Part shown: piece after piece, positions 1,291 to 31,800 of the stretch | Layout: every line of letters starts with the position of its first letter | Position numbering within the stretch: the first letter of the stretch is position 1 | Assembly: GCA_018333535.1 (NCBI GenBank) | Contig: JAGXTA010000174.1 | Span: 1 to 48,459 of the forward strand | Direction of reading: 5' to 3' | Length of the DNA stretch: 48,459 bases | Origin: Deltaproteobacteria bacterium | GTDB lineage: Bacteria > Desulfobacterota > BSN033 > UBA1163 | The notes under the pieces: generated by a model | Told to the model about the DNA's origin: nothing | Database searches by the model: none | What the model saw: only the letters and a program-made list of their open reading frames with translations | Translations under genes and position numbers: made by a program

Positions 1291-1383
1291 CATTGCAAAA
1301 TGAACAATTAGCAATGATCAATTAGCAGTTAATTAAAAACATTTTGCATTGTTAATTTTGCAATGACTATTTTTCAATGATTA
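1291..1383. repeat. Inverted word array (word CATTGCAAAATGAACAAT)
   Basis: The gap between the GT2 and oxidoreductase genes is filled by repeated short A/T-rich words. CATTGCAAAATGAACAAT (1291-1308) matches the reverse complement of 1348-1365 at 17 of 18 positions. Further partial copies (AGCAATGATCAATTAGC, TTTTTCAATGATTA) lie between and beyond. No gene is visible. Confidence 0.7.
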
Positions 1384-2319
1384 TTTTAAACCCATACCTT
1401 CAGGACATCCCTTGAAGTGCCACCACAACAGGTAAGCATAATTTGAAAATCTGTTTCTCCACCTTTTTACCGTAAAACCGGTCAGGATGCAAACCAGGGC
1501 CATTGATAATAATTCAATCGATAGTCTGATCAGCAGCCCTATCAGAAGAACGAACCATTGCCCTACCCCTCTATTCTTTTTAAAAAATTGATAGCGGGAG
1601 CGGTAATACTCGACCTTTGCCCTCTTCTTATCCTTCTCGGCACTCTTTCCTTGGAAGTGAATGACCTCTGCCTGGGGGATATGATAAACCTTCCATCCCG
1701 CCTTCTTCATCCGATAGCACCAATCCGTCTCTTCTAAAAAGAGAAAATACTCCTCATCTAACATCCCCACCTGCTCCATTGCCTCCCGCCTTACCATCAT
1801 ACAGGCGCCGATCACCGAATCGACTTCGATGGGTTCGGAATAGGTCCTCTCTTTCCCCGGAAACCGACCCGATAAAAGCCAACGCAGGAAACTCTTATTA
1901 AGCAGTTCTGTAGCCAGGGACAGAAAATTGGCGATGGAGTTCTGTTTCGACCCATCGGAATTCAAAAGCTGAGCTCCAACCAAACCTGCCTCCGGATGAT
2001 GATCCATAAAAGCCTTCAGGGTTTCAATGGCCCCTTCCTTTACCTGCGTATCGGGATTGAGAAGGAGGGTGTATTTCCCTTTCGACAACCCCAGTGCCTG
2101 ATTATTGGCCCTAGCAAATCCGAGATTCAATGGATTGTCGATTAGAATCACCTCAGGGAATTCCGTTTTCACCGCTTCCCCGCTTTCATCCATGGACCCG
2201 TTATCGACCACAAAGACTTCCATCTTCAATCTCTGTAAAGTCGGCCTGAGGGACTTTAAACACTGAATCAATAAATCTTTTGTATTCCAGTTCACAATGA
2301 TAATGGATAGATCGTTCAT
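1381..2319 (-). CDS. Glycosyltransferase family 2 (rhamnosyltransferase-like)
   Basis: A 312-residue GT-A fold transferase of the WcaA/rhamnosyltransferase type, expected to add a sugar to a lipid-linked oligosaccharide at the inner membrane. The start reads LSIIIVNWNT, followed by VFVVDNGSMD and the metal-binding region LLLNPDTQ; EETDWCYRM later corresponds to the catalytic-base region ED/ETDxxxR. Residues near 255-285 are hydrophobic (FVLLIGLLIRLSIELL), suggesting membrane attachment. The ATG overlaps the stop of the upstream methyltransferase gene by 4 nt (ATGA, 2316-2319), so the two are translationally coupled. Acceptor and sugar cannot be read from sequence. Confidence 0.85.
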   Translation of the reverse strand: MNDLSIIIVNWNTKDLLIQCLKSLRPTLQRLKMEVFVVDNGSMDESGEAVKTEFPEVILIDNPLNLGFARANNQALGLSKGKYTLLLNPDTQVKEGAIETLKAFMDHHPEAGLVGAQLLNSDGSKQNSIANFLSLATELLNKSFLRWLLSGRFPGKERTYSEPIEVDSVIGACMMVRREAMEQVGMLDEEYFLFLEETDWCYRMKKAGWKVYHIPQAEVIHFQGKSAEKDKKRAKVEYYRSRYQFFKKNRGVGQWFVLLIGLLIRLSIELLSMALVCILTGFTVKRWRNRFSNYAYLLWWHFKGCPEGMGLK

Positions 2320-7678: not shown

Positions 7679-8830
7679 TCAACATTCTGGAGCTATTTCT
7701 CTGAAGATACTCATCATCCGGTCGAAATTAATCCTGTCGGAATATTGTTCCGCTCTCTTCCCTTCTTGAAGCAAGGGAGGTCTTTTCACCCCGCTTTCAA
7801 GAAAATATCGAATTGCTTCTTTCAACTCTTTTAGGTTCGTTGGATCTCTAATCACCCTTCCCTCTTCCGAACGGATCACACCACTTGCGCCATTGGAGAA
7901 AGTGGTGATTACCGGAACTCCGCTGGCCAGGGCTTCTAACACGGTGAGCGAACAGGCATCATAAAAGGTAGGATGCACAAGGAGATCAGCGGCTCCATAA
8001 TATTTTTCCGGCTCGTCGGTTGAACCGGCAAAGATAACCTCTTTAGAGAGACCCAATGTTTTAGCTAAACGGAGATAAGGTTTCTGGCGATCCCTTCCCA
8101 AAATCAAGAGTCGAAAAGGGGGAGCCTCCTCCCCTTTCACCCTGGCCAGCGCTCTTATCAAAAAACTCAGCCCTTTCATTCGGAAATTGTTCGAGACGAA
8201 GAGGAGCATCATTTCCTCTCCGATCTCGTGCCTCTTCCTAATCTCCTGCCGATATTGACGATTCCTCGGATGAAAGCGTTCGATATCAACTCCGTTGTAA
8301 ATCACATCGATCTGATCCTGAGAGAGTCCATACCAATGAACCATATCCTGTTTCACCATATCCGAGATGGCCACGATCTTGGAAAAATTCTTTCTTTGAT
8401 AAGGCCTGCCTTCGATCCCAGCGCTTACCCATTGTTTGGGGCTTAACACTCTCCCTAATAGTTTTATTCCCCAGAGAATCGGGTTGCCATAAGCCTGAAG
8501 GCTTCTCCAGAACCATGCCCAATGGACACCGCCGTGAGGTTGGATCACATCTGCCTCCAGGGTGTTTCCAACGCCAAGCGTCACATCATAATTTCCTTTT
8601 TTTATCTCTCTTGTTGCCTTCATGGCGAAGGAGAGAAGACGAAGGCTCTTCGGAAATGGAATCGTTTTCACCCGGTGAAGGGAAATCCCGAGAACCTCTT
8701 CCTCCCAATGTTCTGCATAGACATGGACTTCGTGGCCCTTCTTAGCCATCCGGGTGCAGAGGTCAACAACATATCTTTCCGCGCCTCCCTTGCGCCTGGA
8801 GAAGTTCCTAATGGCTGTGGCGAATTTCAT
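7679..8830 (-). CDS. WaaG-like LPS core glycosyltransferase (GT4)
   Basis: A 383-residue GT-B enzyme. The start MKFATAIRNFSRRKGGAERY is characteristic of the WaaG/RfaG-like group, which adds the first hexose to heptose II of the LPS core. The C-terminal domain shows LLFVSNNFRMKGL, LILGRD and the GT4 signature segment HPTFYDACSLTVLEALASGVPVIT, where the second Glu of EX7E is present (LEALA) and the first position is replaced by the DACSL stretch. Catalysis is on the cytoplasmic side. Its first codons merge with the ATTCG word array upstream (ATTCGATAATATGAAATTCG). The heptosyltransferase genes in the same cluster support the assignment. Confidence 0.85.
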   Translation of the reverse strand: MKFATAIRNFSRRKGGAERYVVDLCTRMAKKGHEVHVYAEHWEEEVLGISLHRVKTIPFPKSLRLLSFAMKATREIKKGNYDVTLGVGNTLEADVIQPHGGVHWAWFWRSLQAYGNPILWGIKLLGRVLSPKQWVSAGIEGRPYQRKNFSKIVAISDMVKQDMVHWYGLSQDQIDVIYNGVDIERFHPRNRQYRQEIRKRHEIGEEMMLLFVSNNFRMKGLSFLIRALARVKGEEAPPFRLLILGRDRQKPYLRLAKTLGLSKEVIFAGSTDEPEKYYGAADLLVHPTFYDACSLTVLEALASGVPVITTFSNGASGVIRSEEGRVIRDPTNLKELKEAIRYFLESGVKRPPLLQEGKRAEQYSDRINFDRMMSIFREIAPEC

Positions 8831-8902
8831 ATTATCGAATTACACGAATGAGATATAATCGAATGTCACGAATGTTAACGAATTACACAAATAAAACCAA
8901 GT
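8831..8902. repeat. ACGAAT word array, arm 3' of the GxxExxY gene
   Basis: Repeated words of the form CGAATTACACGAATG, CGAATGTCACGAATG and CGAATTACACAAAT fill 8835-8890. They are in the opposite orientation to the words at 9280-9385, so the two arrays form inverted arms around the gene between them. Confidence 0.75.
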
Positions 8903-9298
8903 TTACCCCATAACAACTCGTCGATATTCGACTTTGGCTTTTGAAAAATTGACCAGGATGCCCAGTCTGTAACCACTCGCCTTGAGATATGATAACAGTT
9001 GAGCTGTGTGATGAGGTGCAAACCTTTCAACTGTTTTCAATTCCACGACTATTTTGTCCTCAATGATGAGATCAAGCCGATGATTTCCAATCTTCTTTCC
9101 CTTGTAGGTCAAGTCGAAGACCTTTTCCATGTCCACTTTGATCCCTCTGCTTGTGAGCTCCAGCAGTAGTGCCTTTTCATACACAGCCTCAAGAAACCCT
9201 GGCCCGAGTTCTTTGTGAACTTCGAATATTGCTCCCATGATTTGGTACGACAGGTCACGGTATATGATATTCGTGTGATTCGTTCCCATCAGTGTCAT
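8903..9298 (-). CDS. GxxExxY protein (predicted PD-(D/E)XK nuclease-fold)
   Basis: A 131-residue protein with the family-defining GFLEAVY (Gly34, Glu37, Tyr40) and a core compatible with a PD-(D/E)XK nuclease fold: Asp76 in HRLDLIIED and ELK with Glu86 and Lys88. The family (Pfam PDDEXK_3) is widespread but functionally uncharacterised. The gene does not belong to LPS synthesis; it is enclosed by inverted ACGAAT word arrays (8831-8890 and 9280-9385). The words run into the coding sequence, so residues GTNHTN near the N-terminus are repeat-derived. No ribosome site is obvious; a second ATG at 9287-9289 is an equally plausible start. It looks like an inserted cassette between two glycosyltransferases. 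Confidence 0.85.
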   Translation of the reverse strand: MTLMGTNHTNIIYRDLSYQIMGAIFEVHKELGPGFLEAVYEKALLLELTSRGIKVDMEKVFDLTYKGKKIGNHRLDLIIEDKIVVELKTVERFAPHHTAQLLSYLKASGYRLGILVNFSKAKVEYRRVVMG

Positions 9299-9391
9299 TC
9301 GTAATTAAAATATTCGTGTTATTCGCCATCATTCGCGCTATTCGTCATTAAAATATTCGTGCTATTCGTTGCCATTCGTGTTATTTGTTAT
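9270..9391. repeat. ATTCGTG word array, arm 5' of the GxxExxY gene
   Basis: Words such as ATTCGTGTTATTCG, ATTCGCGCTATTCG, ATTCGTGCTATTCG and ATTCGTGTTATTTG recur, separated by ATTAAAAT spacers. They are the reverse complement of the words at 8835-8890. The array overlaps the N-terminal codons of the GxxExxY gene and ends at the stop of the next GT4 gene (9392). Confidence 0.75.
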
Positions 9392-10558
9392 TTACTTCTT
9401 CCACTTCCCAAGCCTGATCATAGTCTCATAAAATTTCTCGATAGCCTCAACTTGGCGGTCCAATCGGAATTCCCGATGGGCCTTCTCATAGGCAGCCCTC
9501 CCCATGGCCGGCCTTCGTTCTGGATGACGGAGCAATTGAAGAGCTGCCTGAGCCAATTTTTCAGGAGTATCTTCCACGACCCATCCAGAGACACCATCTT
9601 CAACCAGTTCAGGCAACATCCCTCGATCGGCCACAAGGGTTGGTTTTCCCATGGCCATGGCCTCTCTCAGGGCACGGGCCGTGCCGTCGGAGCCTGGCAT
9701 TAAGAAGACAAAGATATCCATGCAAGCCAGAGTATCGAGATAATTATCTGTTTGATATCCCCCGATCACTACCCACGGCTCGATGCCAAGTCTCCTCATC
9801 GGTTTGATGACGCTCTCTTCCATCTGGCTCGAACGGCCCACCAGAAGCACTTTGATCTTTGGATATTCTTTAACAATACGTTTCACCGCATCTAAGAAGA
9901 CCTTTGTCCTCCGATACTTCTGGAACCGCGCCACCATTCCGATGACGATCTCATCCTTTCCAATCCCGAACATGGACCTCATGTCCTTGAATTCTCTCTC
10001 AGGATGGTATCGGTCCAGATCTAAGGCAGGGTTGATCTTGCAGACTCTATCATGTGGAAGTCCAAAATGTTTCGCATCCTCTCTTCTCGCCCGATCAGAG
10101 AAAGTGATCATCCCGTCGGTCAGTTTCGAGATGAGGAGACGATTTCCTGGGTGAGGGCTGATCGGATCCCGTTTATGATCGGTCCGGACAACAACGACAG
10201 AAGTATTTGACCTTCTGGCGGCAACTCCCCCCAGAATATGGTCGTGAGATTGATGGACATTCAGCACGTCCACATTTTCTGCGCGGAGGTAATCGGTAAG
10301 GTCCATAATATCAGAGAGAGTATCCTTGATCGAAGAAGGGGAATAAAATTTCAGGGGGCGGTTCAAACGAAACCGGTCAGTTGCACGAACACTTCTTTCC
10401 AGAACCCTTTTTTCTAAACTATCCTCGACAGGAAACGGAGGCTTTCGATAAGCAAGAGTAACATCATGACCTCTTCTCTCCAATTCTTTACAGAGATTCA
10501 CAATCGGTTCAGAGGGCCCTGTCCATTTCCAATCGCTGAAGAGTTGGAGGATTTTCAT
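9392..10558 (-). CDS. Glycosyltransferase family 4
   Basis: A 388-residue GT-B transferase with the complete GT4 layout. The N-terminus is MKILQLFSDWKWTGPSEPIV with the glycine/serine-rich acceptor loop. The donor domain carries VIGMVARFQKYRRTKVFLDA, KVLLVGRSSQ, then FLMPGSDGTARALREAMAMGKPTLVADRG, which holds the donor-binding glutamate region (REAMAMGKP). It is expected to add a hexose or heptose during core assembly. No clear ribosome site precedes the ATG; the frame cannot extend far upstream. The upstream gap (10559-10735) holds GC-rich hairpins. Confidence 0.85.
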   Translation of the reverse strand: MKILQLFSDWKWTGPSEPIVNLCKELERRGHDVTLAYRKPPFPVEDSLEKRVLERSVRATDRFRLNRPLKFYSPSSIKDTLSDIMDLTDYLRAENVDVLNVHQSHDHILGGVAARRSNTSVVVVRTDHKRDPISPHPGNRLLISKLTDGMITFSDRARREDAKHFGLPHDRVCKINPALDLDRYHPEREFKDMRSMFGIGKDEIVIGMVARFQKYRRTKVFLDAVKRIVKEYPKIKVLLVGRSSQMEESVIKPMRRLGIEPWVVIGGYQTDNYLDTLACMDIFVFLMPGSDGTARALREAMAMGKPTLVADRGMLPELVEDGVSGWVVEDTPEKLAQAALQLLRHPERRPAMGRAAYEKAHREFRLDRQVEAIEKFYETMIRLGKWKK

Positions 10559-11874: not shown

Positions 11875-11965
11875 ACCATTGCGGAATGCGGATTGTGGAG
11901 TGCGGAATTTAAAAAACAAACACTGATGGTTTCTATTCCGCATTCCGAATTCCGAAATCCGCATT
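11875..11965. repeat. Inverted word array (word TGCGGAAT)
   Basis: The left arm reads TTGCGGAATGCGGATTG then TGGAGTGCGGAATTT. The right arm (from about 11932) reads ATTCCGCATTCCGAAT then TCCGAAATCCGCATTTT, the reverse complement of the same word with slight variation. The central spacer is about 25 nt and A/T-rich. No gene is seen. Confidence 0.7.
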
Positions 11966-13733: not shown

Positions 13734-13741
13734 CTTATCTA

Positions 13742-13790
13742 TCCTTCATTGTTCTTCGTTCATTGTTCATTGTTCACAATTTGAATCAAT
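13742..13790. repeat. Direct word array (word TTCATTGTTC)
   Basis: TTCATTGTTC, TTCATTGTTC and ATTGTTCACAATTTG follow each other between the GT2 start and the adjacent REP-B element. Only one orientation is clear here. Confidence 0.5.
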
Positions 13791-16619: not shown

Positions 16620-16756
16620 CCTTCTTTTATCTGTATAGCTTACTGCCTTCTGTCTAATGCCTTCAACTTATTTCGTGTCCGCATCCGTTTGCCGTGACCG
16701 TTTGTTACTTCTTTTTCGTCTCCCTATCTCCCCATCCCCCCATCTCCCCATACTTC
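16620..16756. repeat. Mixed word arrays in a gene-free gap
   Basis: Several short reiterations follow each other: ACTGCCTTCTGTCTAATGCCTTC, then CGTGTCCGCATCCGTTTGCCG with GACCGTTTG, then CTCCCTATCTCCCCATCCCC with CATCTCCCCATAC. The last word recurs at 25020-25055. No gene or obvious promoter is seen. Confidence 0.45.
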
Positions 16757-17634: not shown

Positions 17635-17895
17635 CCTCTGGTATTCACGAATGACTCGAATGAGAGCGAATATGACGAATAGAACAGTCCTTTGTCATTG
17701 AGAAAGATAATCTTTCATGACGGAAGCATAACCTCCCGTTCAAACGGGACAGCCTCGAACAACGAAAATCCCCCTCAATCCCTTTTACAAAGGGGGATAA
17801 TTACACCTCCCTTTGGCAAAGAGAGGTTGGGAGGGATTTAAAGAAGTTATTTTCTGAGCAATATTCGGTTAATTCGTTATCATTCGTCTTATTCG
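17635..17895. repeat. Composite: ACGAAT word arms around REP-B core
   Basis: The left arm (17643-17688) reads ATTCACGAATGACTCGAATG then GAGCGAATATGACGAATAG. The right arm (17855-17898) reads AATATTCGGTTAATTCG then TATCATTCGTCTTATTCG, inverted relative to the left. Between them are the CTCCCGTTCAAACGGGA hairpin and a REP-B core (AATCCCCCTCAATCCC...GGGAGGGATTT). The right arm also supplies the stop codon and last residues of the FtsB-like gene. It resembles the arms of the GxxExxY locus but holds no gene. Confidence 0.65.
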
Positions 17896-18194
17896 TTTTT
17901 ATCCTTAGGAAGATCGAATTGATAAATGATCTCTCCCTCTTTGACCATTCCCAGCTCTTTTCGGGCAATCTCTTCAATGTAGCGTTTCTCATGTTGAAGT
18001 CGCCTCACCTCTTCCTTCAGCCTTTGGTTTTCTTCCTCCATTTTTATATTCATCTCTTTAATCCTCGCTAATTCTCTCTGCAACCGGAGGAGGTGAAGGA
18101 TTCCTTTATCTCCGAAGAAGGTAAAGAACCCGAAAATGAGGAGTAAGCAGAGGAGCAAAAGAAAGAGATGCTTCTTGCGTAGGTTGATGGCCAT
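17889..18194 (-). CDS. ftsB: Septum formation initiator (FtsB/DivIC family)
   Basis: A 101-residue bitopic membrane protein. One transmembrane helix (about residues 8-27, HLFLLLLCLLLIFGFFTFF) is followed by a coiled coil rich in Glu, Arg and Leu (LQRELARIKEMNIKMEEENQ...) and the conserved terminal segment EIARKELGMVKEGEIIYQF, typical of FtsB/DivIC. FtsB joins FtsL and FtsQ in the divisome. It starts 5 nt after the TonB-like gene stop, so the two are probably co-transcribed. The stop codon is formed by the ACGAAT word array. The symbol is by family; a DivIC role cannot be separated. Confidence 0.85.
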   Translation of the reverse strand: MAINLRKKHLFLLLLCLLLIFGFFTFFGDKGILHLLRLQRELARIKEMNIKMEEENQRLKEEVRRLQHEKRYIEEIARKELGMVKEGEIIYQFDLPKDKNE

Positions 18195-30894: not shown

Positions 30895-31035
30895 TAGGTC
30901 ATCAGGATATCAGGTTATCAGGAGGTGGGTATCAGAAAATCAGGAGATCAGGTTTAAAATTTTATATTTTATCCCTCTGGTTTCCTAATATCCTGGTATC
31001 CTGCTTCCTGATTTCCTGTTCACCTGATACCCCTC
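30895..31035. repeat. Inverted word array (word ATCAGGATATCAGG)
   Basis: The left arm reads ATCAGGATATCAGGTTATCAGG then TATCAGAAAATCAGG and GATCAGG. The right arm reads CCTAATATCCTGGTATCCTG then CCTGATTTCCTGTTC and CACCTGATACC. The spacer is A/T-rich. It separates the sigma and anti-sigma genes and could affect their relative expression. Confidence 0.7.
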
Positions 31036-31687: not shown

Positions 31688-31800
31688 AAAATAAAAACGA
31701 ATAACACGAATGGCAGCGAATGACACAAATAGGTTTTATTCGTGAAATTCGTTATCTTTTGGGTTCATTCGTTTCATCATTCGTGAATCTCTCCTTTTTC
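31688..31800. repeat. Inverted ACGAAT word array (gene-free copy)
   Basis: The left arm reads AAAAACGAATAACACGAATGGC then AGCGAATGACACAAATAGG. The right arm reads TTTTATTCGTGAAATTCGTTATC then TTCATTCGTTTCATCATTCGTG. Same word family as the GxxExxY locus, here without a gene. The right arm encodes the C-terminal FTNDETNEPKR of the 3-hydroxyacyl-CoA dehydrogenase. Confidence 0.75.

Follow-up and report, generated by a model that had tools for sequence, protein, structure and literature searches.

What is a short gene of the GxxExxY family, a large annotated family without a known role, doing between two glycosyltransferase genes and within repeats of a six-letter word? The question is raised by a 48,459-nt contig of a Deltaproteobacteria bacterium (assembly GCA_018333535.1, contig JAGXTA010000174.1; genome G000 below), analyzed here over its whole length and hereafter called the window. 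The gene occupies 8903..9298 on the minus strand and encodes a protein of 131 aa. Upstream of it (9260..9391, minus strand), the word ACGAAT is repeated on the gene strand with a spacing of ~9/10 nt, and downstream (8835..8898, minus strand) the gene strand carries ATTCGT. On the plus strand, this corresponds to ACGAAT copies at 8844, 8868 and 8878 and to eight exact copies of ATTCGT in 9269-9379. The gene does therefore lie between oppositely oriented arrays, as the original prediction from the bare sequence had it, and the words do enter the coding region: in frame, GGAACGAATCACACGAAT translates into the N-terminal residues GTNHTN. Counted over the window as a whole, ACGAAT exceeds expectation only mildly (30 copies for 22 expected). 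Its clustering, however, is not due to chance: 57 close pairs occur in 780 kb of the own genome, a sample partly picked around known array matches, where permuted words give 1-2, and triple arrays are found 21 times genome-wide against none for the reversed pattern.

How did this unit come to lie there? The flanking glycosyltransferase genes (7679-8830 and 9392-10558, both on the minus strand) are 0 to ~10 nt apart in five related genomes. In four of these (G004, G003, G009 and G005) they abut or nearly so, for example at CATTATTTCTTCC, where stop and start overlap, and in the fifth (G007) ~9 nt separate the matches to the two genes. Thus, the 561 bp of 8831-9391 (minus strand), gene and both arrays included, are a clean insertion between two genes, and the limits set by the empty sites of the relatives are those that had been predicted for the element. 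Clean insertion, at a place that relatives keep empty, is what MITEs and other transposable elements show; no target-site duplication is obvious at 8831/9391, the relatives being too diverged for a duplication of 2-5 bp to be read.

The history of the junction is not a simple one. G001 carries the element at the same site as G000, and the alignment of the two runs straight through the flanks. A copy from another genus (G016, L004) sits at another site, and there the similarity to the window spans only 8860-9344, that is, it stays within the arrays. A tree built from one of the flanking genes groups G000 with the element-less G007 (support 97/96), so that either precise loss or repeated insertion at the glycosyltransferase junction must be assumed. 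In two further genomes, of two genera (G002:C3, L078; G015:C117, L018), a GxxExxY element with ACGAAT words is embedded in one and the same flanking sequence, which makes a third insertion site. The own genome also holds a second GxxExxY gene (G000:C57:28179-28523, L002), accompanied by GATTAC/AGATT words and by neighbours that look like phosphate-transport genes.

The same words recur without a gene. Both places named in the original prediction, 17635-17895 and 31688-31800, are inverted ACGAAT/ATTCGT arrays with no gene of their own. The first (17635-17895, array 17647..17896) has a loop of 182 nt that holds an unrelated dispersed repeat; the second (31688-31800, hairpin 31697..31784) is closed, with a 7-nt loop between the word clusters. 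The repeat nested in the first loop (~17750-17862, ~100 bp, AATCCCCCTCAATCCC...GGGAGGGATTT) is present in dozens of copies in G000, G002, G003, G004 and G006. Among relatives, the 17635 site carries an empty hairpin in G004 and a decayed one in G005, and the hairpin is absent from G007, G001, G009, G010, G011 and G012. Gene-less hairpins are thus scattered in intergenic DNA and are gained and lost between relatives. Nearly all are intergenic, often no more than 40 nt from a gene end, and most have loops of ~8 nt, the canonical form being four words per arm, spaced 9/10/9. In the own-genome sample, adjacent opposite clusters always read ACGAAT then ATTCGT (19/19; the reverse never), and exact words follow one another at 9 nt 31 times and at 10 nt 22 times. 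Across the arms of six canonical copies, the words pair at 133/144 positions and the spacers at 25/60, against 29 for permuted arms. Since the spacers are unpaired, the conserved unit is the words, rather than the pairing of a stem. As had been proposed, the copies with and without the gene are members of a single element family. Other short word arrays also lie between genes of the window (1299-1387, 11878-11965, 13741-13776, 16719-16751 and 30901-31026), with the words AATGAAC, ATTCCGA, TTCATTG, TCTCCCCA and ATCAGGAT/TTCCTGG.

What kind of protein is enclosed by the arrays? It matches TIGR04256 (E 1.9e-43, 147.5 bits for a cut-off of 35) and PF13366 (E 9e-42, 142.6 bits for a cut-off of 22) over its full length, which places it in the GxxExxY family. 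It retains E37, D76, E86xK88 and Q100xxxY104; in 30 diverse members of the family, E37 (the glutamate of GxxE), D76, E86 and K88 are invariant, and Q100 and Y104 are found in at least 90%. To judge from these residues, the E-D-ExK-QxxxY site of a putative nuclease is intact. The AF2 model (pLDDT 86.9) has a restriction-endonuclease-like fold, and its best structural match is the Cas4 protein SSO0001 (Foldseek E 3.6e-4; Z 9.1), followed with middling scores by LHK-Exo, lambda exonuclease, AddAB and Holliday-junction resolvases. Fold, active-site residues and QxxxY motif are those of RecB/Cas4-like PD-(D/E)XK enzymes, and we predict that the protein is a minimal nuclease of this group. It is much smaller (~130 aa) than the Cas4, RecB and lambda-exonuclease proteins whose fold and residues it shares and, unlike theirs, its gene stands alone in word arrays, with no cas1/cas2 or helicase partner at the locus.

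Comparison with the same-site copy shows that the protein is under purifying selection, because the G000 and G001 proteins are 89% identical while their fourfold sites agree at only 50%. For the neighbour genes of the same two genomes the figures are 71-73% and 39-44%. Broken copies, with stops or as fragments, occur in seven genomes (G002, G009, G013, G014, G018, G030 and G054), which speaks for a turnover of GxxExxY genes. Elsewhere, two or three GxxExxY genes stand in a row (G092:C32, G170:C3, G402:C4, G340:C1), as if elements had inserted beside or into one another, and the domain is also seen inside long open frames (G336, G364, G348 with 883 aa, G150 with 1560 aa), which are possibly fusions. 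We rejected a phage origin, as IMG/VR gave no relatives for two queries and phage records gave only one distant halovirus homologue (two records). On plasmids, there are eight distant matches.

Is the association of gene and arrays general? We scored the inverted similarity between the 250-nt flanks of each gene and called a score of at least 15 strong. Strong inverted-repeat flanks enclose 53 of 70 GxxExxY genes, compared with 7 of 287 control genes and none of 70 shuffles; when the controls are genes with intergenic DNA on both sides, the comparison is 22/39 against 5/313. In a Bacteroidota set, in which three loci come from two other phyla or their genomes, strong flanks are found at 20/34 GxxExxY genes, 0/34 shuffles and 1/20 controls. 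An absence of flank enrichment, which would have spoken against the original prediction, is thus not what is seen: the same architecture, built from other words, surrounds most GxxExxY genes in the two phyla sampled.

ACGAAT itself is not fixed, so that the predicted word family stands as an architecture of inverted arrays, with a word that differs between protein subclades. Words found at GxxExxY genes include ACGAAT, CGCAGAG, CACGGA, CACGAA, CACAGA, GCCAAG, AGGAA and AACAAC, among others; many fit RCRRA, with one polarity on the gene strand upstream in 52 genes against 9. The similarity of words follows that of proteins (~0.05 below 45% protein identity, 0.35 at 70-80%, 0.74 above 80%; Mantel p<=0.001), the agreement being clear above ~60% identity and weak below. 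Physical linkage alone could produce such agreement.

Array number also follows the gene. At least 10 CGCAGAG arrays are present in 25 of 111 genomes with PF13366 and in 1 of 187 without, and permutation within families keeps the signal in a weaker form (p about 0.006-0.04). CGCAGAG arrays are therefore far commoner in genomes with the gene, where equal frequencies would have counted against the original prediction, but arrays do persist in genomes where no GxxExxY gene was detected (G004 and G006 for ACGAAT, G040 for CGCAGAG), the assemblies being incomplete. One protein subclade showed no association with genome-wide CGCAGAG counts (p 0.54), so that fine word specificity is not supported by that sample; grouping genomes by the word at their own GxxExxY gene gave p 0.025, with six genomes only.

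The arrays are, however, not specific to the nuclease. S23/IVP genes, found by HMM (PF05635), have inverted word-array flanks of the same kind, with other words, in 20 of the 26 scored. The S23/IVP proteins are not known to be nucleases. Their genes are abundant (10 in G000, 17 in G002), and those fetched (L132-L161) lie mostly inside inverted word arrays. The nuclease is thus not needed for arrays to exist or to spread, and the predicted tie between arrays and nuclease gene holds as flank enrichment at GxxExxY genes, without being exclusive. In Coxiella burnetii, the intervening sequence (IVS) of the 23S rRNA is excised by RNase III; its inverted repeats form a stem whose loop contains an S23p ORF, and heptamers are repeated in tandem upstream of that ORF (PMC4990558). 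Together with the S23/IVP flanks, this shows that the architecture is wider than GxxExxY.

The window element has several relatives by layout, none of which it fully matches. Like the 23S rRNA IVS, it measures ~0.4-0.6 kb, has terminal inverted repeats that form a stem round one short ORF, and bears short tandem words beside that ORF. Unlike the IVS, it is intergenic, between glycosyltransferase genes and outside any 23S rRNA gene, and its protein is a PD-(D/E)XK nuclease homologue rather than the four-helix bundle of S23p. With REPIN/RAYT (TnpA-REP; PMC3116915, PMC8266576) it shares a gene between inverted repeats and gene-less intergenic inverted pairs. We nevertheless rejected membership in that system, since PDDEXK_3 is the only Pfam family in the gene and there is no GTAG (or CGTC) tag; the element lacks an HUH/Y1 transposase and a GTAG-tagged palindrome, and what is repeated is a 6-nt word, in arrays whose spacers do not pair. 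MITEs resemble it in that a longer copy with a gene has short, non-coding relatives, inserted elsewhere and bearing inverted repeats, but here there is no known transposase parent, and word arrays take the place of a single conserved inverted repeat at the ends. The literature we searched, from which subscription journals were mostly absent, gave no match to the array sequences and no description of GxxExxY genes in word arrays; the family is named there, in one case without a function.

The results support an element of word arrays that is mobile and occurs both with and without the gene. To explain them, we propose that 8831-9391 is a small mobile element, selfish or semi-domesticated, whose nuclease probably recognizes and moves its word arrays, a reading to which we give a probability of about one half. 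GxxExxY would bind its own word array, which would probably be present as a duplex or as an extruded DNA hairpin, and would contact several sites ~9.5 bp apart. It would then nick or trim the array, which, with or without the gene, would be copied or inserted at gene junctions. The gene-less hairpins would be derivatives that, like MITEs or REPINs, are non-autonomous. If the specificity of the protein shifted, the word would change with it, leaving different words in different subclades. Binding, cleavage and transposition are all inferred here. What makes us prefer this action of the nuclease on the arrays is the conserved active site, together with a fixed word order, spacers that do not pair and a number of arrays that follows the gene.

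The same layout could also work at the level of RNA. Once transcribed, the inverted arrays would pair to form a stem round the ORF, and an enzyme such as RNase III would excise or process this structure, as in the IVS of Coxiella (PMC4990558), which would make the element harmless inside operons; GxxExxY and S23p would be passengers or RNA binders, and the element would perhaps spread by reverse transcription. Compared with shuffled sequences, the RNA of the element folds much better (z -5.1), and its structure encloses the ORF. The insertion lies at the stop/start junction of an apparent operon, and word arrays also surround S23/IVP genes that are not in rRNA. Yet spacers that pair across the arms no more than permuted ones would be odd if pairing were selected, the protein resembles DNA exonucleases in fold and active site, and Rfam has no match in the window. 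We regard an RNA-level element as doubtful. Unlikely, in our view, is that the arrays spread by means of their own (replication slippage, hairpin repair, gene conversion or an S23-linked process) with GxxExxY, like S23, as captured cargo. Two unrelated protein families in one architecture, the persistence of arrays without the gene and the frequency of broken GxxExxY copies would all fit such capture, and linkage alone would yield the agreement of words and clades. Random cargo, on the other hand, would hardly be expected to show strong purifying selection and an intact active site, nor does capture sit well with a fixed word order or with array numbers that rise with the gene, also within families. 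What leaves RNA processing and cargo capture some probability is chiefly that S23 genes share the architecture.

Finally, the hairpins could serve the host as transcription terminators or as mRNA-stabilizing structures, the link to the gene being secondary. Their intergenic position, often close to gene ends, is what one would expect of such hairpins, but a host function accords poorly with presence and absence that differ between close relatives, with unpaired spacers and with one gene family associated across phyla, and we consider it highly improbable. Beyond the proposed mobile element at 8831-9391, one may envision a new class of mobile elements that crosses phyla, in which a stand-alone Cas4/RecB-like GxxExxY protein would read 6-nt words about one helical turn apart, copy or insert the array and make gene-less hairpins. 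Shifts in specificity would create many word dialects, and S23/IVP would be a second lineage with the same architecture. We put this wider proposal forward tentatively, as a possibility short of an even chance.

What would this mean for the family? GxxExxY would gain a definite partner in the DNA, marked by a word that can be read, and its function becomes directly testable because every gene brings its presumed binding site along. Such elements would account for a type of short word repeat that is common in metagenome-derived genomes, and they would place the S23/IVP proteins, long unexplained, and the 23S rRNA intervening sequences that belong to them within a single architecture.
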